DNA of 33,696 bases from a virus. The stretch is from positions 1-33,696 of the IMG/VR virus record IMGVR_UViG_3300030107_004267; one strand, 5' to 3'. Positions 1,063-19,951 of the stretch are shown here, one piece after another. The notes below the pieces were generated by a model. That model saw only the letters and a list, made by a program, of their open reading frames with translations, was not told the origin of the DNA and searched no databases. The number at the start of each line of letters is the position of its first letter. The stretch's first letter is position 1. A program made the position numbers and the translations under genes.

Positions 1063-1794
1063 ATGAATAAAAATCAACTAACAAACTTCATCACAAAATA
1101 TACATTGGGTGGAGAAATTAAATCAACAAAGTGGACTTCAAATGGCAGTTCATTATCAACAAGATTTATCTCAGGTGATAAGTCAGTTGTTGGTAGTGTG
1201 ACATTAAGTAAGTTCAATCATCTGGCACCTTGTGAATTAGGTGTATATAATACGGGACAACTATCAAGTTTGCTATCAGTATTAGGTGACGATGTTGAAC
1301 TTAATTTATCTCAATCTGGTGATAAGTTTATTTCAATGGAGTTTGAAGATACAAAAAGAAAAACAAAGTCAAAGTATATGTTGAGTGATTTGTCAGTTAT
1401 ACCAACACCACCAGAACTTAAGAATCTACCAGATTCATTTGAGTTAGGTATCAAGGTAGACCCATATTTCATCAACACATTTACAAGTGGTAAAAGCGCT
1501 TTATCAGAAGCTGAAACATTTACTATTTTGACTGAGAATGGTGAAACTAAAATCGTCATTGGATATGCAAGTATCGCATCTAATCGTGTAACGATACCAG
1601 TAGAAACTACAAAACAAGCAGACATTGAACCAATTAGTTTCAATGCAAATATGTTCGCATCAATCTTAAATGCAAATAAAGATTGTGAAAGTGCAACACT
1701 TGAAGTTAGTTCAGCAGGGTTATCAAGAATTAAATTCTCAATCGACAACTATGATTCAGAATATTTCTTGGTGTCAACACAAGCGGTTAATTAA
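1063..1794 (+). CDS. 45: Sliding clamp, T4 gp45-like
   Basis: DNA polymerase processivity factor. In T4 three gp45 subunits form a ring around DNA that tethers gp43 and also activates late transcription. The protein has 243 residues, close to T4 gp45 (228). It lacks short catalytic motifs, as expected for a clamp, and the call rests on overall character (for example the N-terminal stretch LTNFITKYTLGG) and on its place between polymerase and clamp loader. A strong AAGGAG sits ahead of the ATG. Its stop overlaps the gp44 start by one base (TAATG), so the two are probably translated as a coupled pair. Confidence 0.85.
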   Translation: MNKNQLTNFITKYTLGGEIKSTKWTSNGSSLSTRFISGDKSVVGSVTLSKFNHLAPCELGVYNTGQLSSLLSVLGDDVELNLSQSGDKFISMEFEDTKRKTKSKYMLSDLSVIPTPPELKNLPDSFELGIKVDPYFINTFTSGKSALSEAETFTILTENGETKIVIGYASIASNRVTIPVETTKQADIEPISFNANMFASILNANKDCESATLEVSSAGLSRIKFSIDNYDSEYFLVSTQAVN

Positions 1795-2717
1795 TGGACA
1801 ATATAAAACACACATTGTGGGTTGAAAAATATAGACCGACATCACTAGATAATTACATTGGTAATGACCATTTAAAATCAAAGGTGTCGGTATATCTTGA
1901 GAGTGGTGATGTTCCGCATTTATTATTATTTGGTAAAGCAGGAACTGGTAAAACTACTCTGGCAAAACTCATTGTTAATAACATTGATTGTGACTATTTA
2001 TACATAAACGCATCTGATGAGAATAGTGTGGATGTGGTTCGTGAGAAAGTCAAGAACTTCGCATCAACATTAGGTTTCAAAGATATGAAAGTGATTATCT
2101 TGGATGAGTGTGATTACATCACACCAAACGCTCAAGCAGCACTTCGTAATCTTATGGAAACATTCTCAAAGAATTGTCGTTTTATATTGACTTGTAATTA
2201 TGTGGAAAGAATTATTGACCCGATACAAAGTCGTTGTCAATCATTCCAGATAATTCCACCAGATAGAAAACAAGTTGCACAACATTTAGCTAATATTTTG
2301 GATGATGAAAATGTTAGTTATGATGTTAAGAATATAGCGACTATTGTGAATGGTGGTTATCCGGATATTAGACGAGTAATTAATGGTGCTCAAAGACAAG
2401 TGGTAAATAGTGAGTTAGTGATTGATGAAAACACAATGGTTCAAAATGATTACAAGTTACAAGTATTAGACATACTTAAAACACAGGACAAGAAGAATTC
2501 ATTTCAAAACATCAGACAATTACTAGCAGACTCAAAAGTATCAGACTTTTCAGATTTGTTTAGATTGTTGTTTGACACGGTAGATGATTGGGGAACTGGT
2601 CATATCGCAGAGTGTATTTTAATCTTGTCTAAATATCAACAATCAGACGCAGTCGTAGTGGATAAAGAAATCAACATTATGGCTATGTTTGTAGAAATAA
2701 TAGGGAGTATTAAATGA
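1794..2717 (+). CDS. 44: Clamp-loader ATPase subunit, T4 gp44-like
   Basis: AAA+ ATPase subunit of the clamp loader, which opens the gp45 ring and places it at primer-template junctions. The 307 residues (T4 gp44 has 319) carry the standard motifs in order: EKYRP near residue 11, Walker A GKAGTGKT at 47-54, Walker B IILDECD at 101-107 with the DEC box typical of clamp loaders, and the SRC motif (QSRC, 145-148) that supplies the arginine finger. The start overlaps the gp45 stop, and the end overlaps the next gene by ATGA. In T4 the partner gene 62 is next to 44. Here it is not adjacent, and a candidate lies at 9294. Confidence 0.94.
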   Translation: MDNIKHTLWVEKYRPTSLDNYIGNDHLKSKVSVYLESGDVPHLLLFGKAGTGKTTLAKLIVNNIDCDYLYINASDENSVDVVREKVKNFASTLGFKDMKVIILDECDYITPNAQAALRNLMETFSKNCRFILTCNYVERIIDPIQSRCQSFQIIPPDRKQVAQHLANILDDENVSYDVKNIATIVNGGYPDIRRVINGAQRQVVNSELVIDENTMVQNDYKLQVLDILKTQDKKNSFQNIRQLLADSKVSDFSDLFRLLFDTVDDWGTGHIAECILILSKYQQSDAVVVDKEINIMAMFVEIIGSIK

Positions 2718-2974: not shown

Positions 2975-3488
2975 GTTTAAAATTGGTAAATTAACATTCA
3001 CTCTTCCAAATAATAAACCAACAGATAAATTGTTTCAACAATGGAAACAAGAATTTCTTAGTGTGCCAGAAACAGACAATTACAAAGTTTGGCTGACGGG
3101 TGGATTCTTAGAGGATTGGGAAACTACCGACATAGACTTAATCTTAACAGGTGAACCAGATTACAAAGAGGTAAGAAATTTATTACATCAAGCCAGAATT
3201 ATTGGTGCAAAGTATGGATTACTAATTGATATATCACATTGGGACACAGAACCTTTATATATTTATGAAAACTATCCAAGTGCTTGGGGTGTAGGGACTG
3301 GTATTGAAAAATTTGTTGTAGAAAAACTAAACATTGATTTCAAACTAATTGTCAATGACGAATTAATAAAACAAGTAAAAGAATATGAAAAAGTTATAGA
3401 GGGATTATATAGATATAAGTTTACATATCCTACAAAAAAGCAACTAACAAGAAATTATAAATCTAAACCAATATTACTAAATGAATAA
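2949..3488 (+). CDS. Nucleotidyltransferase-fold protein (Pol beta superfamily, minimal type)
   Basis: Probable small nucleotidyltransferase. The signature is LTGGFLEDWETTDIDLIL: the GG of the nucleotide-binding turn (residues 51-52) followed by D61-x-D63, with a third acid at D94 in LLIDIS, as expected for two-metal Pol beta-type active sites. The longest frame opens at an ATG at 2901, but that would overlap the zinc-ribbon gene by 74 bases. I prefer the TTG at 2949, which has GGAG 11 bases upstream and gives a 179-residue protein. Substrate unknown; it could modify a protein, RNA or sugar. It is the first accessory gene after the replisome core. Confidence 0.6.
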   Translation: MDKKVKYNKFKIGKLTFTLPNNKPTDKLFQQWKQEFLSVPETDNYKVWLTGGFLEDWETTDIDLILTGEPDYKEVRNLLHQARIIGAKYGLLIDISHWDTEPLYIYENYPSAWGVGTGIEKFVVEKLNIDFKLIVNDELIKQVKEYEKVIEGLYRYKFTYPTKKQLTRNYKSKPILLNE

Positions 3489-4155
3489 AAAAATTATACA
3501 TAATGTAGAAAAGTTTTACTATGATAATCACAGAGTAAATAAAGATGGAACCGAACGGGCATTAAATATTTATGAGAATAATTTTGGTAGATTAGATGGT
3601 GGAAGACAACACGACCCAATCTACAATGATGAAAATGCAAAATATCAAGTCTATACATTTGGTTGTAGTTGGACTTATGGTTGGGGCTTAGAACAAAAAG
3701 AAGCATTTCCACATTTATTGGGTGATAAAAACACGGCAGTTCATAACTATGGAGCAGGTGGAACAGGTTTAGATTTCGCAGTCAAGACTTTATCGGAAGT
3801 TTATATACCTGAATCAAGACGACAGATATTTATTATTACGATTCCACACTTTTTTAGAAGAACTTGGTTTGATGACAATGGTGCAGTCTTAAGGTCGTGG
3901 CAGATACAAGAACAAACCAATATAAACGAATACAATCACTACTTTAATTTTCTACATAACTATGAATTACTAAACAGAATTATAGGTCGTGATAAAATCA
4001 TATGGGGAACTTGGGAAGGGGACTTACCACGAAAACACTTTGATGTTCACTTTGATGTATTTGATATGGCAGCTGATATGTTACATCCAGGGAAAGAATC
4101 ACATAAAAGATATGCCGAAAAATTAAAGAAAATTATAGAGGAAAAATGCAAATAA
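3481..4155 (+). CDS. SGNH/GDSL hydrolase-like protein 1
   Basis: Likely esterase or deacylase of the SGNH fold. Block I is GCSWTYG with the nucleophile candidate S63. The oxyanion-hole glycine lies in NYGAGGTG (90-96). The C-terminal block is DMLHPG with D199 and H202 in the usual DxxH spacing, so the catalytic triad looks complete. Such enzymes often remove or transfer acetyl groups on glycans, which fits the sugar enzymes in this genome. The start overlaps the preceding gene by 8 bases and has no clear Shine-Dalgarno. A related protein follows directly and a third is at 21006. Confidence 0.72.
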   Translation: MNKKIIHNVEKFYYDNHRVNKDGTERALNIYENNFGRLDGGRQHDPIYNDENAKYQVYTFGCSWTYGWGLEQKEAFPHLLGDKNTAVHNYGAGGTGLDFAVKTLSEVYIPESRRQIFIITIPHFFRRTWFDDNGAVLRSWQIQEQTNINEYNHYFNFLHNYELLNRIIGRDKIIWGTWEGDLPRKHFDVHFDVFDMAADMLHPGKESHKRYAEKLKKIIEEKCK

Positions 4156-4826
4156 CTTCATTTGGTTGTAGTTTCACATTTGGTGAAGAGTTAGATGATT
4201 TACCAGATTGGTTTAATGATTTGTCAGACAAACGAAACTATATGCCACTCAAATTAAAATATGAAAAAGCATCTAAAAAAAGTTATCCTTATGTGTTGGG
4301 TTCTTTTTTAGATTTTGAGGTTGAGAATAATGGTTGGAGAGGTGGTAGTAATGATAGAATCTTTAGAACATTCTTTGACCATTTGATAAATAATAAAAAG
4401 AAGACTATTTACACTATACAATGGACTTTTCCACATAGAACAGAATATTGGAGTGAGAAAAAAAATATGTTTAGAGGAATTGTACCAGACTTCAATACCG
4501 ATTTTAAGAAACAGAATTCAAAGAAAGAAAGTATAGTCTATTCGTCAGAGTATTATGCAAAATTTCAAAATGATGATGTTGATAATAAAAAGTTATTAAG
4601 GTATATTTGGAGTGTAGATTCTTTATGTAAACAATTCGGACACGAACTAATTCAGTTTATGCCAATAGAAAATGAACTTGATATGTTACCAGACTCATTT
4701 CTAAACTCAATGGAGATTATGACATTGGTAGAGAATAAAATTCATCCAACGGAAGAACAACATAAAAGATTGGCTAAATACTTATTAATAGGATTAACAA
4801 ATGTATTACAAGATAGATTTAAGTAA
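4146..4826 (+). CDS. SGNH/GDSL hydrolase-like protein 2
   Basis: Second SGNH-like protein, 226 residues, paralogous to its upstream neighbour. Block I is FGCSFTFG with S9 at the very N terminus. WRGGSNDRIFR supplies the glycine/asparagine region of the oxyanion hole. The C-terminal His is H200 in NKIHPTEEQHKRL, but the Asp three residues before it is Asn (N197). The triad is therefore either altered or completed elsewhere. Start supported by GAGG upstream; 10-base overlap with the previous gene. Substrate unknown; glycan deacetylation is a guess from context. Confidence 0.65.
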   Translation: MQITSFGCSFTFGEELDDLPDWFNDLSDKRNYMPLKLKYEKASKKSYPYVLGSFLDFEVENNGWRGGSNDRIFRTFFDHLINNKKKTIYTIQWTFPHRTEYWSEKKNMFRGIVPDFNTDFKKQNSKKESIVYSSEYYAKFQNDDVDNKKLLRYIWSVDSLCKQFGHELIQFMPIENELDMLPDSFLNSMEIMTLVENKIHPTEEQHKRLAKYLLIGLTNVLQDRFK

Positions 4827-5244
4827 TTACGAAACACGAGAAGTTCCAAAATTTCAAGAGTTCAACGATTGGGAACAAATGAAATGGAACGAGGTTCAAA
4901 TAGATATCTTAAAAGAGTTAAATCAATTCAAGGACTCGTTTGGTAAAGATTGGTTTAAAGAATGGACTTTGCCTGATTTAAAATACAGATTAAAAAATAA
5001 TTGGTCGTTTTATTTAGTTGAAGGTGGTTGGTGTTTTATAGATTGGAATAGAAAATATCCTTATTTATGTAATCGTTATGTGATGCCAGAACATAGAAAC
5101 AAAGGATTAGGTAGCGATTTAGTGTGGTTAAGGTGTAATGAAATTAAACAACAAGGATACGATACCGCTATGATTAAGTTAGAGGATTGGAACACGCCAG
5201 CACTATCGGTTATGAAAGAGAATATCTTTACTAAAATGGACTAA
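4801..5244 (+). CDS. GNAT-family N-acetyltransferase
   Basis: Probable acetyltransferase using acetyl-CoA. The C-terminal half has GNAT motif A, VMPEHRNKGLGSDL, with the acyl-CoA pyrophosphate loop R99-N-K-G102-L-G104, and motif B around WNTPALSVMKE (130-140). At 147 residues it is the usual size for a stand-alone GNAT domain. It overlaps the SGNH gene by 26 bases and ends just before the gap that precedes the Hint protein. An acetyltransferase beside two possible deacylases suggests acetyl groups being added to and removed from one class of substrate, but that is inference. Confidence 0.7.
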   Translation: MYYKIDLSNYETREVPKFQEFNDWEQMKWNEVQIDILKELNQFKDSFGKDWFKEWTLPDLKYRLKNNWSFYLVEGGWCFIDWNRKYPYLCNRYVMPEHRNKGLGSDLVWLRCNEIKQQGYDTAMIKLEDWNTPALSVMKENIFTKMD

Positions 5245-5249
5245 ATAGA

Positions 5250-5257
5250 TATTTATT
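5250..5257. promoter_or_regulatory. TATTTATT element before the Hint-protein gene
   Basis: TATTTATT ends 15 bases before the ATG at 5272, followed by a good AGGAG ribosome site. The gap is only 27 bases, so it may place a transcription start for the long Hint-protein gene. Same motif family as at 1030. Confidence 0.35.
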
Positions 5258-5271
5258 CTTAGGAGAAAATT

Positions 5272-7524
5272 ATGTCAGCTGAAACAAAAATAACAAATTT
5301 ATTAAATTATATTACAGGAAGTGCAGGTGGTTGGCCATCAAATACTAATGTTAGTATCCTTATGGGTGTTGATTACTTCATAGAGACAGGTTCTAACAAC
5401 ATTTATTTTAGTGAAATGAACACTGCTTGTGGAGTTAGTGGTGAGTTATCAAGACAAGAGGATACTTTTGATAAAATTTCAAATTATGCAGCATCTCAAA
5501 GTTGCACAACAGCGTATGTATATGGTCAAGATGATAATGTAAAACATAATCCTTCTTCTTTTCAAGAACCATTGATTAGTGCGAGTTTTGCAAGACACGG
5601 AATATCAGTAAATTTTGAGAATAATGATAACACTTCAATAACTTATTTTTCACAAAGAGGTCAATCACAATATTCAGGTAGTTTTCATTTATTTATGCAA
5701 ACACCTTGGTTTAGTGATGATACCTTGTTTAACATCGCAAGTGGTTCGTTTAACAAAAGTTCTTTTAGAAATATTCTATCATCATCACCAGAGAGTAATT
5801 GTTTAATACCATTATTTGATAAGGATAATTATACACCTAATGTTAATTTTCCTGACTATGTCATAAAAAAACCATCAGCTCACTCATCATTAGGAAGTGG
5901 TAATATAGGATTTAGAAAATATCAATCAGGCACTACTACTTATCAAGACGCGGTAGACAATGGAAACATAACTGAAAAGTTTATAGTATCAAGTGGTAGT
6001 TATAGTGGTGGAAGAGGGCACTTACTCACTAATAAAAAATATTATTGGGTAACACCAACGGAGATTATAAATGCCGGACAAGATGTTGACCAAAGTGTAA
6101 CTTACTCAAGTCAGTTTATTATGTCAGGAAGTGAAGCATATCACCCACAACCAAGATTTCTAAGAATAGTTGCAAGTGGAAGTTTAATCAATATGTATGA
6201 TGGTTCAACAAAACAAATCCAAGATGTAGAAGTCGGTGATGTTGTTAAATCATATCAACCGATTGGTATGCCAGATGAATCAGAAGGTATAAGTTGGGAA
6301 AGTTATACAACAACAGATTTAAGTGGTTCATTTTCTTCTGGTTCTATTGTTGTTGAAACAATAAATAAACAAAGTTATGGATATTATTTAATTAACGGAA
6401 GTATAAAAGTTCCTGCAGTTCCACATACTATGCACGGAGGTGGAAAGTTCTTTTGTAAAACAGGAGACGCTTGGAGTTGGAAGCAGTCAGTTGATATATC
6501 AGTCGGAGACTACTTTTTAAATAATGATGGTAGTGAGTTAGAAATCACATCAAAAACTAATGTTTTATCAGATGAAACATTTTATGGACTAAATGTTGAG
6601 GATATTGATACATACTTTCAATCAAATATATTGGTTCATAATATCCCACCACTTTGTTTTGTAGCAGGGACACAAATCACAATGGGAGACGGAGCTACAA
6701 AAGCAATAGAACTTATTGAAGTAGGTGATGAAATTAAAAATTATGACTTTGAAACAAAAGAAATCAAAGTAGGTAAAGTATTATCCATTGAAACACCAAC
6801 ACACGCAGATATCGTAGAGATTAGTTTCGGTGATAAGAAAAGTAGAAATACATTTGACCACCCATATTGGGTAGTCGGAAAAGGTTGGTCATCTTACAAA
6901 CCACATTGGACAGAAAAAAGATATGACATCAAATCTGGACAATTAGAGGTTGGAGATAAATGTTTAGAACTTCAAGATAATATAATCATAGAAACTGAAA
7001 TAACTGATATCCAAGAGGACATCAATCCAGTTCAAACATATTCATTGGGGGTAGAAACACACAAAAATTATTTTGCTAACGATATGTTAGTTCATAACAA
7101 AGGAAGTTTTTGTTTTACTTATGACACTATGATTACATTATCAGACGGAACATATCAACAGATATGTAAAATCAGACCAAACGATATGATAAAAACATAT
7201 GATGTAGAAACTGGTAAATTACAAAATTCAAAAGTGTTAGAAACCGTAAAAGTTCTACACGACAATATGGTTACATACAAATTTAATGACAATACAAAAA
7301 TTGAGGCAACTGACGACCACCCATTTTACATAGTTGGGAGTGGATACAAAGCACCATTAACCATTGGTGATATAGTGTTAAATGATGAATTACAAGAAAG
7401 AGAAGTTGTCAATATAGAGGTAAATAATGTGGAAAAAATTACATACAATATCAACAGAACTGATAATGGTAAAAATTATTTCGCAAATAGGGTTTTAGTT
7501 TCTGATGAGTTTGATACAGAATAA
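5272..7524 (+). CDS. Large protein with three tandem C-terminal Hint (intein-like) modules
   Basis: A 750-residue protein. Residues 1-295 match no family I can name; they are rich in Ser, Gly and Asn, which would suit a virion or fibre protein. The rest is three Hint modules. Module 1 (about 299-457) has no Cys at its start but ends in ILVHN. Module 2 (462-609) starts with CFVAGT, has an internal DHP (529-531) and ends in MLVHN. Module 3 (614-744) starts with CFTYDT, has DHP (682-684) and ends in VLVSD with no terminal His-Asn. Only four residues separate modules (IPPL and KGSF). There is no homing endonuclease insert and no Cys, Ser or Thr at the +1 position, so these resemble bacterial intein-like domains that cleave rather than splice. 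Good AGGAG before the start. Confidence 0.75.
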   Translation: MSAETKITNLLNYITGSAGGWPSNTNVSILMGVDYFIETGSNNIYFSEMNTACGVSGELSRQEDTFDKISNYAASQSCTTAYVYGQDDNVKHNPSSFQEPLISASFARHGISVNFENNDNTSITYFSQRGQSQYSGSFHLFMQTPWFSDDTLFNIASGSFNKSSFRNILSSSPESNCLIPLFDKDNYTPNVNFPDYVIKKPSAHSSLGSGNIGFRKYQSGTTTYQDAVDNGNITEKFIVSSGSYSGGRGHLLTNKKYYWVTPTEIINAGQDVDQSVTYSSQFIMSGSEAYHPQPRFLRIVASGSLINMYDGSTKQIQDVEVGDVVKSYQPIGMPDESEGISWESYTTTDLSGSFSSGSIVVETINKQSYGYYLINGSIKVPAVPHTMHGGGKFFCKTGDAWSWKQSVDISVGDYFLNNDGSELEITSKTNVLSDETFYGLNVEDIDTYFQSNILVHNIPPLCFVAGTQITMGDGATKAIELIEVGDEIKNYDFETKEIKVGKVLSIETPTHADIVEISFGDKKSRNTFDHPYWVVGKGWSSYKPHWTEKRYDIKSGQLEVGDKCLELQDNIIIETEITDIQEDINPVQTYSLGVETHKNYFANDMLVHNKGSFCFTYDTMITLSDGTYQQICKIRPNDMIKTYDVETGKLQNSKVLETVKVLHDNMVTYKFNDNTKIEATDDHPFYIVGSGYKAPLTIGDIVLNDELQEREVVNIEVNNVEKITYNINRTDNGKNYFANRVLVSDEFDTE

Positions 7525-8131
7525 AGATTTCAAATATTCAATTCAAATACCTACATTTTTATCACACGAAAAATGCGACGAGTTAATAAAACAAATAACT
7601 AACACAGAACAAAAAGTTGTAGGTGGAGTCGGTGGTGAAAAAGGGGAACCAGCTATAATACCAGAAATAAGAGTTACTGATGAGTGGTATTTATTTGACC
7701 AACCACTAAATCCATACAGACCAGATAAATGTAATGGTGATTGGAAATGGTTACAAGATAAAATATATCAAGTTGTAAAAATGGTTAATCAAGGAGTCTT
7801 TAAGTTTGACATTGAAGGTGCTGATGATGAATTGAAACTTATAAAGTATCACGAGGGTGGGTTTTATGGTTGGCATACAGACTTCAATGCAGGTAGTTGC
7901 TCAGTTAGAAAACTTGTAGCAATAATCCAACTAACAGACCCAAGTGAATATGAGGGAGGAGAAGTTCAATTTGGTATTCAAGATAAACATACAAAAGAGT
8001 GGTATACAATGAATCAACTAAAGGGCTCTTTGACTATATTTCCCACATTTTTATCTCACAATGTAACACCAGTCACTAAGGGGACAAGATATGTTATACA
8101 AGAGCTATTCATAGGAAATCACTTTAAATGA
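7505..8131 (+). CDS. 2OG-Fe(II) oxygenase (prolyl 4-hydroxylase-like) 1
   Basis: Predicted 2-oxoglutarate and iron dependent dioxygenase, 208 residues. The iron triad is visible as H124-T-D126 in GWHTDFN and the distal H185 in FLSHNVTPV; R195 in KGTRY would bind 2-oxoglutarate. EGGEVQF is typical of the P4H-like group. In characterised members the reaction hydroxylates a protein side chain or a small molecule; the target here is unknown. The gene starts inside the last 20 bases of the Hint gene and is followed by two more oxygenases, so the four may act on one another's products. Confidence 0.85.
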   Translation: MSLIQNKDFKYSIQIPTFLSHEKCDELIKQITNTEQKVVGGVGGEKGEPAIIPEIRVTDEWYLFDQPLNPYRPDKCNGDWKWLQDKIYQVVKMVNQGVFKFDIEGADDELKLIKYHEGGFYGWHTDFNAGSCSVRKLVAIIQLTDPSEYEGGEVQFGIQDKHTKEWYTMNQLKGSLTIFPTFLSHNVTPVTKGTRYVIQELFIGNHFK

Positions 8132-8634
8132 GTAAAGACTTTCAATGGTATCTTGTAAGAGATAATTTTTTATCTCAAAAAGAATGTGAAGAGGTTATAG
8201 AAATAATTGATAATAATCGTGATAATTCAGAATCTACACAAGACATAGAACTCAAAGAGGATAAATATTTAAATAAAGTTTGGAAGATTATGGAACTTTC
8301 AAATAATATACATTATAATTTTGATATTGATTGTATTCAATTACAAGAGGGAAAGTATTATAAAAAGGGAGTTTTCAAAGAAGAAGAAACACTACACTCA
8401 GATTTCGCTGCAGGGCCAGGAAGATTAGTCGATATTAATACAAAACTTACATCAGTTATTTTTTTAAATGATGACTATTGGGGTGGTGGATTACAGATAT
8501 GGAACGAAAAAATAGAATCAAAGCAGGGTAGGATAGTAATATTTCCAGCTTTTGCAGCACATAAAGTATTACAATTTTATGATAAAGATAGATATACAAT
8601 GTTAACTTGGATAAAAGGGAAAACTTTCAGATGA
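8128..8634 (+). CDS. 2OG-Fe(II) oxygenase (prolyl 4-hydroxylase-like) 2
   Basis: Second of three consecutive dioxygenases, shorter (168 residues). Metal ligands are H90-S-D92 in TLHSDF and the distal H145 in FAAHKV, with R155 in KDRYTML as the 2-oxoglutarate anchor. WGGGLQIW replaces the EGGE segment seen in its neighbours, so it is the most divergent of the three. ATGA overlap on both sides points to translational coupling. Substrate unknown. Confidence 0.82.
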   Translation: MSKDFQWYLVRDNFLSQKECEEVIEIIDNNRDNSESTQDIELKEDKYLNKVWKIMELSNNIHYNFDIDCIQLQEGKYYKKGVFKEEETLHSDFAAGPGRLVDINTKLTSVIFLNDDYWGGGLQIWNEKIESKQGRIVIFPAFAAHKVLQFYDKDRYTMLTWIKGKTFR

Positions 8635-9239
8635 TAAAGAAAAAAAACTTTCAGTTTGTATTACACAGAGAAAACTTTTTAACACCAAAACAATGTGATG
8701 AATTGATAGAAAAATTTGGTCAGTCTAACTCACAGAAATCTACCGTTGCAGGAACTTATAAAGGAGATGATTCGGATGTAATAAATGAAGATGTTAGAAA
8801 AGTTCAAGAGATAAGATTAAAAAATGATGTGGTTTTGTCAGACGGATTCAAGTTAACAAAAAATATAATAATGGCTTGTGAAATGTCTAATCTACTTAAT
8901 TTTCAATTTGACTTGAAAAAACCATATGAATTAGAGGATATTGTTGTTCTACGATATCAAGATACTGATAAATACGATTGGCACTTAGACATAGGTGATT
9001 GTTCTACTTCACTAAGAAAAATAACAGCGATAATTCAACTAAGTGATGAAAATGATTATGAGGGTGGAGAGTTTGAATTTAGTATGTCAAATGATAAAGG
9101 AGATGATAATTGTTATGGTTCAAGAAAAAAAGGTTCACTAATATTATTTCCAGCATACTTAGGACATAGAGTTAGACCAGTAACAAGTGGTGTTAGATAT
9201 TCGATAGTCACTTGGATTCTTGGAAACTCTTTTAAATAA
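8631..9239 (+). CDS. 2OG-Fe(II) oxygenase (prolyl 4-hydroxylase-like) 3
   Basis: Third dioxygenase, 202 residues from the ATG at 8631. An earlier in-frame ATG at 8607 exists, but 8631 gives the ATGA overlap seen throughout this operon and aligns its N terminus (NFQFVLHRENFLTP) with paralogue 2 (DFQWYLVRDNFLSQ). Iron ligands are H118-L-D120 and H179, with R189 for 2-oxoglutarate. It has EGGEFEF and resembles copy 1 more than copy 2. It ends the accessory block; a 54-base gap follows. Confidence 0.84.
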   Translation: MIKKKNFQFVLHRENFLTPKQCDELIEKFGQSNSQKSTVAGTYKGDDSDVINEDVRKVQEIRLKNDVVLSDGFKLTKNIIMACEMSNLLNFQFDLKKPYELEDIVVLRYQDTDKYDWHLDIGDCSTSLRKITAIIQLSDENDYEGGEFEFSMSNDKGDDNCYGSRKKGSLILFPAYLGHRVRPVTSGVRYSIVTWILGNSFK

Positions 9240-9268
9240 TTTACATTTTCAGATTCATACAAGATACT

Positions 9269-9276
9269 TATTTATA
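9269..9276. promoter_or_regulatory. TATTTATA element before the gp62-like gene
   Basis: TATTTATA in the 54-base gap after the oxygenases, ending 18 bases before the ATG at 9294, with AAGG between. Same motif family as at 1030; orientation relative to the T4 late core is again inverted. Confidence 0.35.
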
Positions 9277-9293
9277 TCTAAAGGTTATTCACT

Positions 9294-9728
9294 ATGAAAA
9301 CAAAAACACTATTTGACCACATAAAACAGATTACAAATGTTCAGAACCAATTGTATTGGGACAACTTAACTGATGCCGATAAAAAGACTTGGTCTAATTA
9401 TATGGTTCATAGATTCTTATCTATGAAAGCAGAGTGGATTGAAGTAGTCAACGAGATTCAAAAGTATTGGGAACTAAAACCTAAAACAATTTATCAATTC
9501 TACACCAACATACTACCAAGAGGAAATACATACTTACGATATACTAAACCTAAGAAGAAATCCAAGATAGAAAAGTGGGCTATGGATATATTATGTGATT
9601 ATTTTCAAGAAAGTTCACAAAATATTGAAAAAACACTTGACATTATGGGAAAAGATGTTGTATATTCTATTGTATCAAAGTATGGTGTAGATGAAAAACA
9701 ACTAAAAAAAATATGGAGTAAAAAATGA
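9294..9728 (+). CDS. 62: Clamp-loader small subunit, T4 gp62-like
   Basis: Read as the partner of gp44 that bridges the loader ring. From memory of the family, the segment WSNYMVHRFLSMKAEWIE followed by FYTNILPRGNTYLRYTK parallels the FMV...LS stretch and the PRGKRY..WAK segment of T4 gp62 and its shorter marine relatives. The length (144 residues) is below T4 gp62 (187) but suits the compact marine versions. It lies 6.6 kb from gp44, separated by the accessory block, whereas 62 and 44 adjoin in T4. A helical protein with no catalytic motif, so the call rests on this alignment and on the lack of another candidate next to gp44. Confidence 0.68.
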   Translation: MKTKTLFDHIKQITNVQNQLYWDNLTDADKKTWSNYMVHRFLSMKAEWIEVVNEIQKYWELKPKTIYQFYTNILPRGNTYLRYTKPKKKSKIEKWAMDILCDYFQESSQNIEKTLDIMGKDVVYSIVSKYGVDEKQLKKIWSKK

Positions 9729-12037: not shown

Positions 12038-13474
12038 ATGAGTAAGACAAAACTACCAAAATTAAAAGTTACAGAAGAAGTAAAATCCAATAAGAAAAAA
12101 ATATTACTATTGTCAGATGACTTGAGAATGTCAAGTGGGGTTGGGACAATGTCAAGAGAGATTGTTTTAGGAACTTTAGATAAGTATGATTGGGTTCAAG
12201 TTGGTGGTGCTATCAAACATCCAGACAAGGGCAAAGTTATTGATATGAACGAATCGGTTAGACAGGATACTGGTGTAGAAGACGCAAGTCTAAAAATTTA
12301 TCCAGTTGATGGTTATGGTGACCCAGATTTACTTAGACAACTATTACAAACTGAGAAACCAGACGCTCTTTTAATTTATACTGACCCGAGATTTTGGATT
12401 TGGTTATTTCAAATGGAGCACGAGATTAGACAATTAGTCCCTATATTTTATTATAATATTTGGGACGATTTACCTTATCCAATGTGGAACGAACCTTATT
12501 ACGAAAGTTGTGATTTGATTATGAATATTTCAAAACAAACACACAACATAGTTCAAAATGTTTGCCAAGATAAACCAAGAACAGATTGGGATTCAACTTA
12601 TGTTCCGCACGGAATCAATGAAAAACATTTCTATCCGGTAAAGAATGAAAAAGAAAGATTAGAAATGAACAAAATGAAATCTGAGTTATTCAGAGGTAAA
12701 GACATAGAGTATTGTATCTTCTACAACAATAGAAATATTAGAAGAAAAATGACATCAGATACCATTTTAGCATTTAGAGAATTCGCTTATCAATTACCAA
12801 AAGAAGAAAGAGATAAGGTCGCTTTCGTTTTACACACACAACCGGTTGATACGAACGGGACAGATTTACCAGCGGTTGTTGAAAAAATGTGTCCAGATTT
12901 GAACATAATATTTTCAACTGAAAAACTATCTAATCAACATTTAAATTATTTATATAATATTTGTGATGTTACGATTAACCTAGCTTCTAATGAAGGGTTC
13001 GGATTAGGGACTTGTGAATCACTAATGACAGCCACACCTATTATTGTAAATGTTACAGGTGGTATGCAAGACCAATGTGGATTTAGATTAAAAGATAAAT
13101 ATTTGACTTACAAGGATTATGGTGAGATTGAATCACTACATAATTATAGAGACTGGGAAAATAATAAAGATTTAACTCACGGAGAGTGGGTAAAACCAGT
13201 ATGGCCTAAAGTTCGTTCATTACAAGGTTCACCACCAACACCTTACATTTTTGACGATAGATGTGATTGGATGGACGCAGCCGAGTCAATTAAACACTTT
13301 TATGATATGGGTAAGGATGAAAGAAATAAATGTGGTGAGTTAGGATATGAATTTGTTTGTGGAGATGAGTCTATGATGAGCGCGAGATGGATGTGCAAAA
13401 ACTTCGTCGACCATATGGAAACTGCATTTGAAAAGTGGACACCAAGAAAAAGATATGAGGTATTTAAAGTATGA
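12038..13474 (+). CDS. GT-B glycosyltransferase, GT4-like (1)
   Basis: First of a series of glycosyltransferases, 478 residues. The C-terminal domain has the GT4 signature SNEGFGLGTCESLMTATP, with the two glutamates at about 319 and 326 that hold the nucleotide-sugar donor. The N-terminal domain starts LLLSDDLRMSSGVGTMSREI, the usual acceptor-side glycine loop. AAGG stands before the ATG. It overlaps the next GT4 gene by ATGA, and the two may add successive sugars. Donor and acceptor unknown. Confidence 0.85.
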   Translation: MSKTKLPKLKVTEEVKSNKKKILLLSDDLRMSSGVGTMSREIVLGTLDKYDWVQVGGAIKHPDKGKVIDMNESVRQDTGVEDASLKIYPVDGYGDPDLLRQLLQTEKPDALLIYTDPRFWIWLFQMEHEIRQLVPIFYYNIWDDLPYPMWNEPYYESCDLIMNISKQTHNIVQNVCQDKPRTDWDSTYVPHGINEKHFYPVKNEKERLEMNKMKSELFRGKDIEYCIFYNNRNIRRKMTSDTILAFREFAYQLPKEERDKVAFVLHTQPVDTNGTDLPAVVEKMCPDLNIIFSTEKLSNQHLNYLYNICDVTINLASNEGFGLGTCESLMTATPIIVNVTGGMQDQCGFRLKDKYLTYKDYGEIESLHNYRDWENNKDLTHGEWVKPVWPKVRSLQGSPPTPYIFDDRCDWMDAAESIKHFYDMGKDERNKCGELGYEFVCGDESMMSARWMCKNFVDHMETAFEKWTPRKRYEVFKV

Positions 13475-14787
13475 GTAAACCATTAGTATTAGTAACGGCA
13501 CCAATAGCAACGAGAAGTGGTTATGGAAATCACTCACGAGACATTTGTCAGGCACTTATTGAAAGTGATAAGTATGATATAAAAATAAATCCAGTTCGTT
13601 GGGGAAACACACCAATGAATGCATTAGAAACAGAGAACAAAGCTCATTTTGAAATTTATAAAAGACTATTAACTGAACCTACTATGGATAGACAACCGGA
13701 TTTACATATGCATATAGTAATACCAAATGAGTTCACACCATTAGGTAAAAAAAATATAGGAGTAACGGCAGGTATTGAACACACAAATCCGCCAGCAGAA
13801 TGGATAGAGGGTTGTAATCGTATGGATAATGTTATTTTTACTTCAGATTTTACAGAGCATACATTTAAATCAATTGCATATGATAAAATGGACGCTAATA
13901 AAAATCAAAAAGTAGGTGTTGTAAAATTTGAAAAAGACAGCGAAGTTTTATTTGAAGGAGTAGACCCAGAATTATTTAAAGAAACTAAATACATTTCTGA
14001 AGATTTAAATAATGAATTTTCAAATATTAAGGAAGATTTTTGTTTTCTATTCGTAGGACATTGGCTACAAGGCAATCTCGGAGAGGATAGAAAAGATGTT
14101 GGTATGATGATAAAAGTTTTCTTAGAGGCGTTTAAAAACCAAAAAGACGCTCCGGCATTGATTCTGAAAACATCAACAGCTAGTTTTTCAGTTTCAGATA
14201 GACGAGACTTGTTAGAAAAAATAAAAATGTTAAAAAATGATGTAAAAGCAGATGTGTATCCTAATATTTATTTACTACACGGCGATTTAAAGGATGAAGA
14301 AATGAACCAAATGTATAATCACCCAAAAGTGAAAGCACATTTAACCTTTACTCACGGAGAAGGATTCGGAAGGCCATTGTTAGAAGCATCATTTAGTGGT
14401 AAACCTATCATAGCGCCCATCGCTACTGGGCAAGCTGACTTTTTAGATTCAGAGTATACGATTGAATTACCACACGCGTTTACAAAAGTTCCACTAGGAG
14501 CTTTCCCAAATGGATATGTTGATGAGGAAGCTAAATGGGCTACCGTAAATTATGGAGTGTCATTGAACATAATGAAAGATGTCCACAAGAACTATGACAA
14601 ATATAAGATTCGTGGCAAAAAACAAATGATAATAAATCGTGAACACTTCACACACGATAAAATGAAAGAAAAACTAATTCAAATGGTTGATAAATCTTTA
14701 GAGGGTGTTGCACAACAGGTCGAACTAAAACTTCCTAAGTTAGTTAAGAAAAGTGATATTAAAATACCTAAATTAAAAAAGGGATAA
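13471..14787 (+). CDS. GT-B glycosyltransferase, GT4-like (2)
   Basis: A 438-residue GT4-type enzyme. The donor site motif is THGEGFGRPLLEASFSGKP, with the glutamates at about 297 and 304. The N terminus VTAPIATRSGYGNHSRDI has the glycine-rich acceptor loop. A basic, lysine-rich tail (LPKLVKKSDIKIPKLKKG) resembles the N-terminal segment of the preceding protein (TKLPKLKVTEEV), a hint that both contact the same partner. It probably works with the upstream GT4. Confidence 0.85.
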   Translation: MSKPLVLVTAPIATRSGYGNHSRDICQALIESDKYDIKINPVRWGNTPMNALETENKAHFEIYKRLLTEPTMDRQPDLHMHIVIPNEFTPLGKKNIGVTAGIEHTNPPAEWIEGCNRMDNVIFTSDFTEHTFKSIAYDKMDANKNQKVGVVKFEKDSEVLFEGVDPELFKETKYISEDLNNEFSNIKEDFCFLFVGHWLQGNLGEDRKDVGMMIKVFLEAFKNQKDAPALILKTSTASFSVSDRRDLLEKIKMLKNDVKADVYPNIYLLHGDLKDEEMNQMYNHPKVKAHLTFTHGEGFGRPLLEASFSGKPIIAPIATGQADFLDSEYTIELPHAFTKVPLGAFPNGYVDEEAKWATVNYGVSLNIMKDVHKNYDKYKIRGKKQMIINREHFTHDKMKEKLIQMVDKSLEGVAQQVELKLPKLVKKSDIKIPKLKKG

Positions 14788-14788
14788 A

Positions 14789-15244
14789 ATGGCTGAGAAA
14801 AAAATAACTTGTCCACATTGTTTAAGTAACAAAAAGTGTTTTGAAGAAGATGTAAATCAAGTTGAGGATTTTACATCTTATATGTGCTTTAATTGTGGAT
14901 TCACTAGTAATACATCATACACAAAAGACTCAAAAACATTAGACGAACTTTTAAACAAGTCAACACAATTAGTTCGTGATATTCAATTTTTTGATTATGA
15001 TAGAAAAATAACTTGGATTCCAACAACACTTAATATGGGTAAACTTGGAATCATATATCCAGACGGAACAAAAAATAATTGGGTTTGGAAATTAGCAGAG
15101 GTTCGTAAGTTAACTAAAGAAGAACAAGAAGACCCACAATATGGTGGTCACGAATACACACTAGATTTAGAAAACGCAAAAGAGTATGGTCAATATGAAT
15201 TTGTTGACGCTTGTAAAGAAATGGGTATTGTTAAAGACTTATGA
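14789..15244 (+). CDS. Zinc-finger protein, unknown function
   Basis: A 151-residue protein with an N-terminal zinc finger: CPHC (C8, C11) and CFNC (C33, C36). The remaining 110 residues are unassigned and rich in Trp, Tyr and acidic residues. AAGGG sits before the ATG. It is wedged between glycosyltransferase genes but shows no carbohydrate motif; it could equally be a structural or regulatory phage protein. Overlaps the next gene by ATGA. Confidence 0.65.
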   Translation: MAEKKITCPHCLSNKKCFEEDVNQVEDFTSYMCFNCGFTSNTSYTKDSKTLDELLNKSTQLVRDIQFFDYDRKITWIPTTLNMGKLGIIYPDGTKNNWVWKLAEVRKLTKEEQEDPQYGGHEYTLDLENAKEYGQYEFVDACKEMGIVKDL

Positions 15245-15741
15245 AAAATACCACTTGGAAACAAATAGAACCTGGACAAATAATTAGATTTATGTATAAG
15301 GGCGTTCAAGATAACAGAGCAGTTCAGAGAGTTGTTTTAGTTATAGACCCATTATATCGATACAGAAAAAAATCAACGGGTAGAGTGGTGCAATTTTTAG
15401 TTGGTATTCAATTAGATACATTAATAAGTCAACCAATAAACAAGCAAAAGTTTTCTAAACTAATTAGACAATTTGGTGGACTCGAGGAGGAAGATGGTGC
15501 GGTTGAAGTAGGTGATTTACCAGACAAACCCACCAGACAAGTTACAAGACAAACTTACAAAACACTAGATAGATTTTTGCAAAGAAATGATGTATTTAGA
15601 ACTTTCTTTTTAAGAGAGTGTAGGAAAAAAAGAGTGTTTTTATTAGATAGTTACAAAAGATTTCCAAAAAAAGATATGGATAAACTCATTATTGAGAGAA
15701 AAATAAGTAATACTATAAAAAAGTTTGAGGAAATGTTATGA
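15241..15741 (+). CDS. Hypothetical basic protein
   Basis: A 166-residue, strongly basic protein. The N terminus (EPGQIIRFMYKG then VVLVIDPLYRY) has the look of a small beta-barrel, and the C-terminal half is helical and Arg/Lys rich (FFLRECRKKRVFLLDSYKRF). Nucleic-acid binding is possible from charge alone. I do not recognise the family. Coupled to both neighbours by 4-base overlaps. Confidence 0.6.
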   Translation: MKNTTWKQIEPGQIIRFMYKGVQDNRAVQRVVLVIDPLYRYRKKSTGRVVQFLVGIQLDTLISQPINKQKFSKLIRQFGGLEEEDGAVEVGDLPDKPTRQVTRQTYKTLDRFLQRNDVFRTFFLRECRKKRVFLLDSYKRFPKKDMDKLIIERKISNTIKKFEEML

Positions 15742-16397
15742 AAATTAGTTACGGAATAACGGTTTATAATGAATATAAAGAGTTAGATAATTTATTGTTT
15801 CACCTATCTAAGCATATCAGAGATGTAGATGAAGTGGTGGTCACACAAGACACATCAAAAGTTGGGGAAAAGAATATAGTACAAGATGAGTTTCAAGCGC
15901 TAGAAAAAATATTAGAAAAATATGAGTATGGAAATTATTTCAGAAATTTAAAAGTAACATCATTTAAATTCAATAAAGATTTTGCAGAACTAAAAAACTT
16001 TACAAAAGAACATTGTTCAGGTGATTATATATTTCACATTGACGCAGATGAAATACCAAATGAAATATTACTAAAGCAACTTCCAGAGATACTAAATATA
16101 AATGATACAGACTTAGTTTGGGTTCCAAGAATTAATATTGTTGAAGGAATAACTGAATGGCATCTAAATCATTGGAGGTGGAGACAAACTGAGCAGGGGT
16201 GGATTAATTTTCCTGATTATCAAGCGAGGATATTTAGAAATGTGGAACATATTAAATGGATTAAACCAGTTCACGAAATAATAGACGGGGCTTCAACTTA
16301 TTCACATTTACCACCACACGAAGAATTAACTTTAATGCATAAAAAAAATATTAAACGACAAGAAATACAAAATAATTTGTATGATACAATAGTATAG
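15738..16397 (+). CDS. GT-A glycosyltransferase, family 2-like (1)
   Basis: A 219-residue GT2-type enzyme. The fold is shown by the N-terminal strand YGITVYNEYKELDNLL and the metal-binding motif FHIDADEIP, with D102-A-D104. The later segment WHLNHWRWRQTEQGWINFPDYQARIF is typical of GT2 proteins that read as TPR-less waaE-like transferases. GAGG precedes the ATG. The epimerase gene follows after an 8-base gap, so it may use the sugar that enzyme makes. Confidence 0.78.
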   Translation: MKISYGITVYNEYKELDNLLFHLSKHIRDVDEVVVTQDTSKVGEKNIVQDEFQALEKILEKYEYGNYFRNLKVTSFKFNKDFAELKNFTKEHCSGDYIFHIDADEIPNEILLKQLPEILNINDTDLVWVPRINIVEGITEWHLNHWRWRQTEQGWINFPDYQARIFRNVEHIKWIKPVHEIIDGASTYSHLPPHEELTLMHKKNIKRQEIQNNLYDTIV

Positions 16398-16405
16398 GAG
16401 TGAAA

Positions 16406-17257
16406 ATGGACATATTAGTTACAGGTGGAGCAGGTTTTATTGGAACAAACCTAATCAAAAGATTATTAAAAGACGGGCACAATGTTGTAAGTTTGGATAA
16501 CTATTCAACAGGTAAAAAAGAAAATGAACAAGAGGGTTGTGTATATCACGATGTAGATATTAGAGACGCTGTTGACTTTGATTTCTTTATGGAAAAACCA
16601 GATGTGATTTATCATCTGGCAGCACTTCCAAGAATACAACCATCATTTGAGTTTCCGGCATTGACTATGGAAATCGGTATGTTGGGAACTATGAATATCT
16701 TGGAGTGGGCGAGAAATAAAGATTATAAACCTATGGTAATCTACGCTGGTTCATCATCAGTTCATAGTGGACACTACGAAAACCCTTACACTTTTTCAAA
16801 AGTAATGGGTGATGAACTTTGTATGGCATACAAAGAAATGTTTGGAGTTAACGCTAAGATTTGTAGATTTTACAATGTATACGGGCCGCATCAATTGACC
16901 GAGGGAGAGTATTGCACGGTAATCGGTGTATTTGAAACACAATATCAAGAGGGTGTTGAGTTAACAATTACAGGCGACGGAGAACAAAGAAGAGATTTTA
17001 CACACGTTGATGATATCATTGATGGATTAATATTGACTTCTGAATCAGAGAATTTCGAATTAGACTATGTTGAACTTGGTAGAGGACATAATCACTCAAT
17101 CAATGAGTTAGCAGAAATGTTTGGTTGTGGTTACACATACATACCTAAAAGACCAGGTGAAGCAGAGGTAACACTTTGTGACATATCACTCGCTAAAAAA
17201 GATATAGGATATGAACCAAAAGTAAATCTAGAGGACTACATTAAGAGTGTGGTATGA
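16406..17257 (+). CDS. NAD-dependent sugar epimerase/dehydratase (extended SDR)
   Basis: Nucleotide-sugar epimerase or dehydratase, 283 residues. It has the Rossmann NAD loop GGAGFIG (7-13), the catalytic SSS region at about 116-118 and Y128-x3-K132 in NPYTFSK. The match is to the UDP-glucose 4-epimerase/WbpP-like group; exact substrate cannot be read. I place the start at ATG 16406, with GGAG at 16397-16400 spaced correctly, rather than at the in-frame GTG at 16400, which would lie inside that ribosome site. Supplies activated sugar to the surrounding transferases. Confidence 0.85.
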   Translation: MDILVTGGAGFIGTNLIKRLLKDGHNVVSLDNYSTGKKENEQEGCVYHDVDIRDAVDFDFFMEKPDVIYHLAALPRIQPSFEFPALTMEIGMLGTMNILEWARNKDYKPMVIYAGSSSVHSGHYENPYTFSKVMGDELCMAYKEMFGVNAKICRFYNVYGPHQLTEGEYCTVIGVFETQYQEGVELTITGDGEQRRDFTHVDDIIDGLILTSESENFELDYVELGRGHNHSINELAEMFGCGYTYIPKRPGEAEVTLCDISLAKKDIGYEPKVNLEDYIKSVV

Positions 17258-18000
17258 AACAATATAGTATCTTTACCGTAACAGACGAAAGTTATAAATA
17301 TTACACAGAAGTTTTCTTCAAATCACTTAATAAAATTAATATGGACTTGATAAAAAAGGTCTATGTATGCGACCAAGGAATGAGTGAGGGTCAAAGAGAC
17401 TTTGTAAAATCTTTTGATAAAGTTCAAATAATAAATCCAGTAAATAAAATCAATGAAAAAACAGAAATAGTTTGGGATGAAACTTGGTTAAAAAAGGTTG
17501 GTTCAAAAACTGAGAATTTATTAAAACTGGTGGAGGATAATGAAGAACCAATAGTTATGATTGATGTTGACTCAATGTTCATCAAAGACTTTTATGATTT
17601 ACTAGACTTTGATAAAGATGTACAAGTGGCTCATAGACCACCAAACTTTCCAGATTATATCGCATCGTTTGTATGTATTAATAAAAAAACTGGTATAGAT
17701 TTTATTAATAGATGGATTAAGAATATTAATAATCTACCACAAGCGCCGAAAGAAACCAGAGCATTATGTAATACGATAAGTGAATTCAAAAATAACATAG
17801 ATGAGTTTAAAATTGGAGATTTACCAGTAGAGCAAATACATTTTTACGGACAAGAATCTGAGTGTGAAAAAAATGATACAAGAGTGGCTCATTTCAAAGG
17901 TTATTCAAAAACAAAATATCTAGGGAACAAAGAGGACTTTAATAATAGAACTAGTCTAAGAGGTTATGACGAAAGACTAAAAGAGTATATCAATGTGTAG
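17254..18000 (+). CDS. GT-A-like glycosyltransferase (GT8-like)
   Basis: A 248-residue protein with a GT-A layout: N-terminal FTVTDESYKYYTEVFFKSL, then VMIDVDSMF with D104-V-D106 as the metal and nucleotide-sugar site, and a late HFKGYSK resembling the HFxGxxKPW end motif of GT8 enzymes. It overlaps the epimerase by ATGA and the asparagine synthase by 8 bases. Sugar specificity unknown. Confidence 0.62.
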   Translation: MKQYSIFTVTDESYKYYTEVFFKSLNKINMDLIKKVYVCDQGMSEGQRDFVKSFDKVQIINPVNKINEKTEIVWDETWLKKVGSKTENLLKLVEDNEEPIVMIDVDSMFIKDFYDLLDFDKDVQVAHRPPNFPDYIASFVCINKKTGIDFINRWIKNINNLPQAPKETRALCNTISEFKNNIDEFKIGDLPVEQIHFYGQESECEKNDTRVAHFKGYSKTKYLGNKEDFNNRTSLRGYDERLKEYINV

Positions 18001-19294: not shown

Positions 19295-19297
19295 GTT

Positions 19298-19912: not shown

Positions 19913-19932
19913 AGTTTAGAGTTTTTATTCAC

Positions 19933-19940
19933 TATTTATT
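19933..19940. promoter_or_regulatory. TATTTATT element before the neuB-like gene
   Basis: TATTTATT in the 39-base gap, 12 bases before the ATG at 19952, followed by GAGG. It is the only such gap inside the glycan module, so it may start a separate transcript for the nonulosonic acid genes. Confidence 0.35.
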
Positions 19941-19951
19941 ACTGAGGTTAT

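Follow-up and report, generated by a model that had tools for sequence, protein, structure and literature searches.

Introduction

Fe(II)/2-oxoglutarate (2OG) oxygenases, carboxylate-amine ligases of the ATP-grasp fold and self-processing Hint domains are each known from described systems; here we analyse a viral locus in which genes of all three kinds appear to stand side by side. The locus occupies positions 5272 to 9239 of an IMG/VR virus record (IMGVR_UViG_3300030107_004267; 33.7 kb, the whole stretch of 33,696 nucleotides being termed the window), where a gene for a Hint protein with a ligase-like N-terminal domain, called the ligase-Hint gene below, is followed directly by three 2OG-Fe(II) oxygenase genes. 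The two enzyme types occur together in the biosynthesis of E-64, which, in the available passages of its description, combines an Fe(II)/2OG oxygenase with the ATP-grasp ligase Cp1B (PMC12568646); the same passages cite YgiC and YjfC as peptide-spermidine ligases. The window shares with that system the combination of an Fe/2OG oxygenase with a carboxylate-amine ligase of the same fold (9cjn: VIA Z 8.2, root-mean-square deviation (rmsd) 5.5, 232 aligned residues), at a structural identity of 10%, but the E-64 system is one of fungi and cyanobacteria, its oxygenase acts on a small acid, and neither Hint modules nor phages figure in those passages.

Each part of the locus also has likenesses of its own. 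Glutathione and glutathionylspermidine synthetases, YgiC and YjfC resemble the N-terminal domain of the Hint protein in predicted fold, in permuted order and in candidate Asp and Glu-x-Asn ligands, whereas that domain is shorter (about 300 residues against 368–603), has no Pfam or profile match, and is fused to one to four Hint modules. Hint domains of the BIL and Hedgehog types (BUBL1 BIL2, Clostridium BIL) are comparable in that module 1 of the protein matches the structure 6y75 and module 2 has Cys1, TxxH and a terminal His-Asn (HN) with no splicing nucleophile behind it; the window differs in that module 1 lacks Cys1 and TxxH and that an enzyme-like domain is followed by several modules in tandem. 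The oxygenases share PF13640 and the HxD...H...R residues with PKHD-type enzymes (PiuC, YbiX) and prolyl 4-hydroxylases, which are their nearest solved sequences, and differ from them in operon context. 2OG-Fe(II) oxygenase genes are common in marine phages, and several per phage, some of them adjacent, are found in S-SM1, HTVC023P and S-SCSM1. The last is an isolate with 24, and the 2022 paper on it states that viral functions of these genes had not been specifically investigated (PMC9602691). In our tree, however, the S-SM1 and HTVC023P copies lie outside the subfamilies found at this locus, and neither genome matched the ligase-Hint protein.

A literature search, outside whose reach most subscription papers lay, found no publication joining ATP-grasp enzymes, Hint domains, phage 2OG oxygenases or phage clusters for ribosomally synthesized and post-translationally modified peptides (RiPPs); publications on autoprocessing Hint domains in bacteriophages were found, none evidently on such an operon. 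By examining the order, co-occurrence, phylogeny and predicted structures of these genes among viral relatives, we conclude that the ligase-Hint gene and the oxygenases very probably form one functional unit, and we hypothesize, with a probability of roughly 45%, that the ligase and the oxygenases act together on one peptide-like product, building or tailoring it. The gene set has the appearance of a viral pathway, so far undescribed, by which a small peptide-like product is made or decorated.

The operon and its conservation

The Hint open reading frame (ORF; 5272–7524, plus strand, 750 residues) lies directly upstream of three oxygenase ORFs on the same strand. Copy 1 (7505–8131; 208 residues) falls in subfamily A of the trees described below, copy 2 (8128–8634; 168 residues, short and divergent) in subfamily C, and copy 3 (8631–9239) in subfamily B; all pass the 27-bit cut-off of Pfam 2OG-FeII_Oxy_3 (PF13640), with 51.4, 42.9 and 56.0 bits, respectively. 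Copy 3 as listed runs from 8607 to 9239 (210 residues from a TTG), and the ATG at 8631 is its likely start. Successive genes overlap, by 20 nucleotides between the Hint gene and copy 1 (ATG at 7505, Hint stop at 7522–7524), by 4 between copies 1 and 2 (8128–8131), and by 4 between copies 2 and 3 if counted from the more likely ATG or 28 from the listed TTG. Overlaps of 20, 4 and 4 nucleotides suggest translational coupling; the first of them is the same in many relatives, while others have a gap of 7–21 nucleotides.

The metal-binding and 2OG-binding pattern HxD...H...R is kept in each copy (H124/D126/H185/R195 in copy 1; H90/D92/H145/R155 in copy 2, counted by hand on the translation; H126/D128/H187/R197 in copy 3, numbered from the TTG), with EGGE in copies 1 and 3 and WGGG in copy 2. 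Thus the sequence-only reading of this DNA, which had described three adjacent oxygenases behind a Hint gene with these overlaps and motifs, described the arrangement correctly. Pairwise blastp matches (copies 1 and 3, 32% identity, E 1e-34; 2 and 3, 28%, E 1e-16; 1 and 2, 23%, E 9e-11) indicate that the copies are true homologues, copy 2 being the most divergent. In nine comparisons with three relatives the oxygenase dN/dS values are 0.02–0.12, revealing purifying selection on all three genes, and four parts of the Hint protein give values of 0.07–0.28 against three relatives. The three ORFs are working genes and not chance ORFs.

The comparison set came from six IMG/VR scans, one of which kept all of its 60 matches and the others the best 80 of 147, 238, 325, 154 and 234. 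After exclusion of ligase-Hint genes cut at a sequence end, of those with less than 2 kb downstream (6) and of copies identical in their last 300 nucleotides, 115 distinct ligase-Hint genes had 2 kb or more of sequence behind them, and oxygenases follow all 115, the number per cassette (a ligase-Hint gene with its neighbours) being two in 8, three in 69, four in 36 and five in 2. In the opposite direction, a ligase-Hint gene lies within 4 kb upstream of 126/126 subfamily A and 137/137 subfamily B genes with room for it (7 A and 10 B genes had none). Failure of such co-occurrence had been named beforehand as the result that would speak against coupling of the oxygenases to the Hint gene, and among the relatives examined the coupling holds both ways. 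For the remaining subfamilies, represented solely in loci retrieved through A, B or the ligase, the gene was found upstream in 58 of 60 cases (C), 71 of 71 (D) and 26 of 26 (E); one of the two C exceptions, locus L360, reads BADC in the cassette tree, so that its ligase-Hint gene lies further upstream, and the other is L359. As a control, 30 loci carrying other phage Hint domains (a seventh scan) contained no cassette-type oxygenases and no ligase domains within at most 3 kb on each side. The name of a conserved ligase-Hint-oxygenase operon suits the locus better than that of a triplication next to a protein that processes itself.

The N-terminal domain of the Hint protein

Residues 1–298 of the Hint protein (5272–6165, plus strand) are predicted by AlphaFold, Foldseek and VIA to form a circularly permuted ATP-grasp ligase domain. 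The AlphaFold model of residues 1–301, built from 36 sequences (pLDDT 84.9, pTM 0.84), has the permuted-order fold of the GSS/GspS/YgiC group: its best Foldseek match is yeast glutathione synthase (1m0w, E 1.3e-7), every one of its 22 matches at E ≤ 0.001 belongs to that group, and VIA aligns it with human glutathione synthetase (8fbz: Z 11.5, rmsd 4.9, 258 residues) and with E. coli YgiC (Z 10.1, rmsd 4.5, 227 residues). D34, E48 and N50 are invariant in 36/36 and 48/48 aligned sequences, and a stricter typed D/E-x-N pattern matched 96 of 117 proteins. Going by what is known of the fold, these three residues are candidate Mg ligands.

The domain was not found in a scan of GTDB contigs at the sensitivity of that scan, and a bacterial origin of the ligase domain is unsupported in that collection. 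Against INPHARED, at the sensitivity used, the full-length Hint protein hit three records, only over residues 300–628, and no BFVD viral model matched the N-terminal domain at E ≤ 0.001. In its predicted structure the N-terminal domain resembles an ATP-grasp enzyme rather than a passive or virion substrate. The Hint protein probably works as an enzyme, and we infer ligase activity for it.

Hint modules and the segments between them

Motif and profile searches revealed that the protein has three Hint modules, not one. Module 1 (residues 299–457; 6166–6642, plus strand) is degenerate, with Ile at the place of Cys1 and no TxxH, and ends in H456-N457. It has the Hint fold in its predicted model, which matches the BIL2 domain 6y75 (VIA Z 16.4, rmsd 2.0, 135 aligned residues) and, in Foldseek, 6tmm (E 6e-9); this second AlphaFold model was built from 48 sequences, with a best pLDDT of 86.5 and values of 61–65 in three of the five models. 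Among 117 relatives the Cys1 place (Ile299 in the window) is taken by Thr (55), Ser (47), Ile (9), Met (3) or Leu (3), and TxxH was not found in module 1 of 105.

Module 2 (residues 462–609; 6655–7098, plus strand) has Cys462, T527-F-D-H and H608-N609 and reaches 41.8 bits with Pfam Intein_splicing (cut-off 35.8; best stretch 478–609). Module 3 (residues 614–750; 7111–7524, plus strand) has Cys614 and T680-D-D-H, with SD in place of the terminal HN, and scores 37.8 bits with TIGR01445 intein_Nterm (cut-off 24.5) and 48.8 bits with PT-HINT (cut-off 27.7). Hedgehog-type Hints likewise end without HN. None of the three modules has the full set of splicing-intein features (Cys/Ser1, TxxH, terminal HN and a Cys, Ser or Thr at +1): Cys1 and TxxH are missing from module 1, Lys comes after module 2, and module 3 has no HN. 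Because Lys offers no splicing nucleophile, cleavage rather than splicing would be expected of module 2 by its motifs. Residues 463–568 also match Pfam AXH (PF08517) at 1e-24, above the cut-off; that model probably covers Hint-like sequences as well, and the match is unlikely to mark an ataxin domain.

The number of modules varies among the 114 relatives that could be parsed (one in 27, two in 40, three in 33 and four in 14), and three further relatives with a late HN stop after one module. Two short segments separate the modules of the window, IPPL between Asn457 and Cys462 (residues 458–461; 6643–6654, plus strand) and KGSF between Asn609 and Cys614 (residues 610–613; 7099–7110, plus strand). 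At the first of these, HN-[I/L]P is kept in 117/117 relatives, so that every post-module-1 segment contains proline, as in IPPK, IPPGK, LPPKC and IPPRK before a second module. The one-module proteins end in LPPK, IPKR, IPQK, IPPK, LPPRK, IPKM, LPKR or IPGKE/D and all stop 4–5 residues past HN, which hints at a function of the tail.

A cleavage product of this kind is what the oxygenases would act on if, as the sequence-only reading had proposed, they hydroxylate the Hint protein itself, either in its N-terminal domain or in pieces such as IPPL (residues 458–461). The constancy of HN-[I/L]P is in favour, even though the last module ends in SD in 71 of the 87 multi-module proteins (15 keep HN and one has another ending), and so are the short one-module tails, a state that needs at least six changes on a tree of 104 of the 114 cassettes (the 10 with fewer than 400 residues up to HN were left out; gains and losses are not told apart on it), together with the presence of prolyl hydroxylases among the solved sequences closest to the oxygenases. 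Short tails are, however, not special to oxygenase-linked Hints, since other C-terminal phage Hints end in, among others, HN-APVDQKH, HN-KVD, HN-AVMVAKK or HN-IK, and an association of subfamily D with PP in the segment does not help: PP occurs in 60/60 cassettes with D and in 39/54 without it, which leaves two to three informative independent pairs, none of them contrary, and no significance once relatedness is considered. That subfamily D reads a second proline is suggested by these counts but was set aside for want of significance. The earlier proposal is partly supported: the coupling holds, the part that made the N-terminal domain a target sits poorly with the enzyme-like appearance of that domain, while cleavage products are possible targets; as a whole, modification of the Hint protein is an unlikely explanation, though one to be reckoned with.

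In a variant of the peptide-product hypothesis, the HN of module 1 and Cys1 of module 2, where present, would excise a short [I/L]-P peptide, mostly of 4–5 residues and often ending in Lys or Arg in relatives; the distinct oxygenases would hydroxylate it, HxG variants of subfamily E would perhaps halogenate it, and the ligase would cap it with an amine. The enzyme itself would then be the precursor in a phage-encoded ribosomal-peptide pathway. Since the other phage Hints also end in HN and a short tail, with no [I/L]P in those read, we hold it rather improbable that the Hint-flanked IPPL-type segment is the product.

Oxygenase subfamilies and their age

Phylogenetic analysis divides the cassette oxygenases into five subfamilies, A to E, of which the window carries A, C and B in that order. 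Other orders are ADB, CAB, ACB, ACEB, CAEB, CADB and AECDB. A is present in 114/114 cassettes and B in 113/114, while C, D and E come and go; a subfamily is repeated in only 4 of 114 cassettes. The subfamilies hold 52 of 53 cassette representatives (the exception being the third gene of locus L057). In a tree enlarged by 43 bacterial and 10 phage sequences the cassette oxygenases cluster together, a single origin being recovered in only 48% of bootstrap trees, with C+D (99/93) and A+E (98/97) as sister pairs; the bacterial sequences derive from 49 loci, 48 with a match and 43 past a length filter, and the long-branched slot gene of phage HTVC008M was excluded. In the first tree one phage oxygenase, the long-branched one of NCTB (L063 3187–3813), groups with the cassette subfamilies, and about 20 kb from it the tail region of the same phage (22420–26334) encodes Hint proteins ending in HN and a short tail.

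Both trees place the three copies of the window in old, separately conserved subfamilies, so that a recent triplication is rejected; with 110 of 114 cassettes free of any repeat, the oxygenases are best seen from their phylogeny as three long-separated members of a conserved operon. The related suggestion that they hydroxylate one target repeatedly fits poorly: given old separate subfamilies, a copy number of 2–5 and the variable presence of C, D and E, the enzymes more likely serve different sites or steps than repeat one another, and the pattern suggests a division of labour among them.

The same features bear on an explanation that dispenses with a substrate of this kind, in which the oxygenases would mainly be 2OG sinks or regulators shifting the nitrogen or carbon status of the host. 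A shift of 2OG levels has been proposed for the numerous and well-known cyanophage 2OG-FeII genes (Sullivan et al. 2010; PMC3037559). Such a role leaves the old non-redundant subfamilies, their strict coupling to one ligase-Hint gene and their subfamily-specific conserved residues unexplained, and we consider it very improbable here.

Profile searches found PKHD-type enzymes and prolyl 4-hydroxylases as the nearest solved relatives of both constant subfamilies (E 9e-9 and 8.5e-5 for B; 2e-6 and 1e-3 for A), and the NCBIfam equivalog cut-off for PKHD-type YbiX/PiuC was not reached (best 56.9 against 143 bits). HxD/H/R is kept in 406 of 416 distinct oxygenases. One of the other ten lacks the last alignment columns, and nine, among 27 distinct subfamily E enzymes, have HxG for HxD with the distal His and the Arg kept (L083 5353–5961, L106 4833–5435, L329 9975–10577 and six more). 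HxG is the pattern of Fe/2OG halogenases. The two are also named together in published papers; human AspH, however, is described as a hydroxylase that likewise has no acidic ligand. By motif, the HxG enzymes of subfamily E may therefore be Fe/2OG halogenases, AspH-like hydroxylases or dead copies.

Proposed pathway and points against it

We propose that the ligase most likely joins a carboxylate, of a peptide or an amino acid, to an amine, and that the prolyl 4-hydroxylase-like and PKHD-like oxygenases then modify the resulting peptide-like product or the building block that goes into it; a GNAT acetyltransferase in most relatives, and a B12-type radical SAM enzyme in many, would also decorate it. 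Cleavage by the Hint modules, after Asn457 and Asn609 as well as at Cys462 and Cys614, would release the ligase from the tail behind it. By tying particular oxygenase subfamilies to a ligase-Hint protein, the conserved operon offers marine-phage oxygenases a definite partner that can be tested, along with a short segment as candidate substrate. If the hypothesis is true, these viruses produce or modify a small peptide-like compound while they infect, and their operon amounts to a natural collection of hydroxylases, and possibly halogenases, that are variants of one scaffold.

Several observations weigh against this hypothesis. With only the best 80 matches kept in most scans, the co-occurrence describes the nearer relatives, and distant exceptions could be missed. 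The gp44–gp62 slot that holds the cassette contains, in Pelagibacter phage HTVC008M, one unrelated 2OG oxygenase (L067 5390–5950) and no Hint gene, so that residence in the slot could explain part of the association. The ligase fold has no counterpart in sequence searches: Pfam ATP-grasp families gave no match to the N-terminal domain at E up to 1, and a profile search of PDB sequences gave seven weak matches (best E 0.085), none of them of the GSS type. The presumed accessory enzymes are not constant either, in that no radical SAM gene lies between the oxygenases and gp62 in the window and no adjacent GNAT was found in 8 of 68 loci (first set of 89 relatives). Nor does the number of oxygenases track the number of Hint modules (Spearman 0.18, p 0.06, n = 114), and a scheme of one oxygenase per module is rejected. 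Finally, the Hint part has a weak PHROGs match to a 'virion structural protein' family (E 0.005), which, with the tail-region Hint proteins of NCTB, indicates that Hint parts do occur in virion proteins.

Under another explanation, the oxygenases would hydroxylate a virion protein, a host protein or another macromolecule and stand beside the ligase-Hint gene only for co-expression. In other phages 2OG genes are indeed found near tail, baseplate or structural genes (two in a row in HTVC023P and in P-SSM7, one in PhiXhv-12), and in DLP_6 a single one follows a tail fibre gene at a distance of a few genes. The oxygenases of the window, by contrast, are located among replication genes and come immediately after the ligase-Hint gene, as in every counted cassette, and none of their neighbours in the slot, several of which are without annotation, was recognised as a virion gene. 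We regard this explanation as improbable, about on a par with modification of the Hint protein itself, and favour the peptide-product hypothesis.

Accompanying genes and genomic surroundings

The window includes T4-like replication genes: the end of a DNA polymerase gene (33–998), a gp45-like clamp (1063–1794), and the two genes that border the slot, a gp44-like clamp loader on the left (1794–2717, plus strand; phrog_168, E 3.5e-86) and a gp62-like clamp loader small subunit on the right (9294–9728, plus strand; phrog_225, E 2.7e-14). In the first set of 89 relatives, gp44 lies upstream of the cassette in 27/27 loci with room and gp62 downstream in 23/23. The gp44 protein is less than 60% identical to its counterparts in all 2,675 matched phage records (47% being the best among the 15 listed) and 38.9% identical to that of the marine T4-like phage HTVC008M. 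The group is one of uncultured, T4-like viruses of bacteria, and from such relatives it is probably marine.

Between gp44 and the ligase-Hint gene lie three genes on the plus strand. A GNAT acetyltransferase (4801–5244; Acetyltransf_1, 31.9 bits against a cut-off of 20.7) is the usual upstream member of the cassette and adjoins it in 60 of 68 loci with room in the first set. It is preceded by a DUF6071-like gene found in some relatives (4146–4826; PF19547, 21.5 bits, below the cut-off of 27; SGNH-like by eye only) and by a gene distantly like the latter (3481–4155; blastp 20.8% identity, E 6e-5). Promoter-like sites in 5000–9500 are not clearly above shuffled sequences (30 against 25.6, standard deviation 4.4), and the three terminator-like sites there all lie on the minus strand (shuffles 1.0).

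Among relatives whose Hint protein has one or two modules, many carry a radical SAM-type gene of about 650–750 codons 3' of the oxygenases (L026 4631–6706, L039, L040, L044, L057 and others). The one tested matches PF04055 (41.6 bits against 29.5), with a weak B12-binding match below the cut-off, and its best NCBIfam match is a RiPP-maturation C-methyltransferase (94.8 bits, below the cut-off of 281.85). A search for its Cys motif, confined to loci that offered 3.5 kb or more, found the gene in 14/24 one-module, 33/35 two-module, 2/20 three-module and 0/6 four-module cassettes.

Other genes appear in some relatives. A weakly Stf0 sulfotransferase-like gene lies between the oxygenases and gp62 in L020 (5254–5892; 16.9 bits, below the cut-off of 22) and in L017 (6206–6844). 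The L057 cassette (3088–3675 and 6018–6683) includes a QueC-like PP-loop ATPase (25.3 bits against 22) and a gene that matches an Asp/Asn hydroxylase only marginally (13.2 bits, under the cut-off of 22.6).

Further downstream, the window carries a large sugar cluster (12038–28528) with glycosyltransferases, a nucleotide-sugar epimerase-like gene (16400–17257), an AsnB-like amidotransferase (17993–19294), NeuB (19952–21022), DUF6071 (21006–21677) and a cytidylyltransferase (21959–22657), a gene content that makes a nonulosonic-acid pathway likely.

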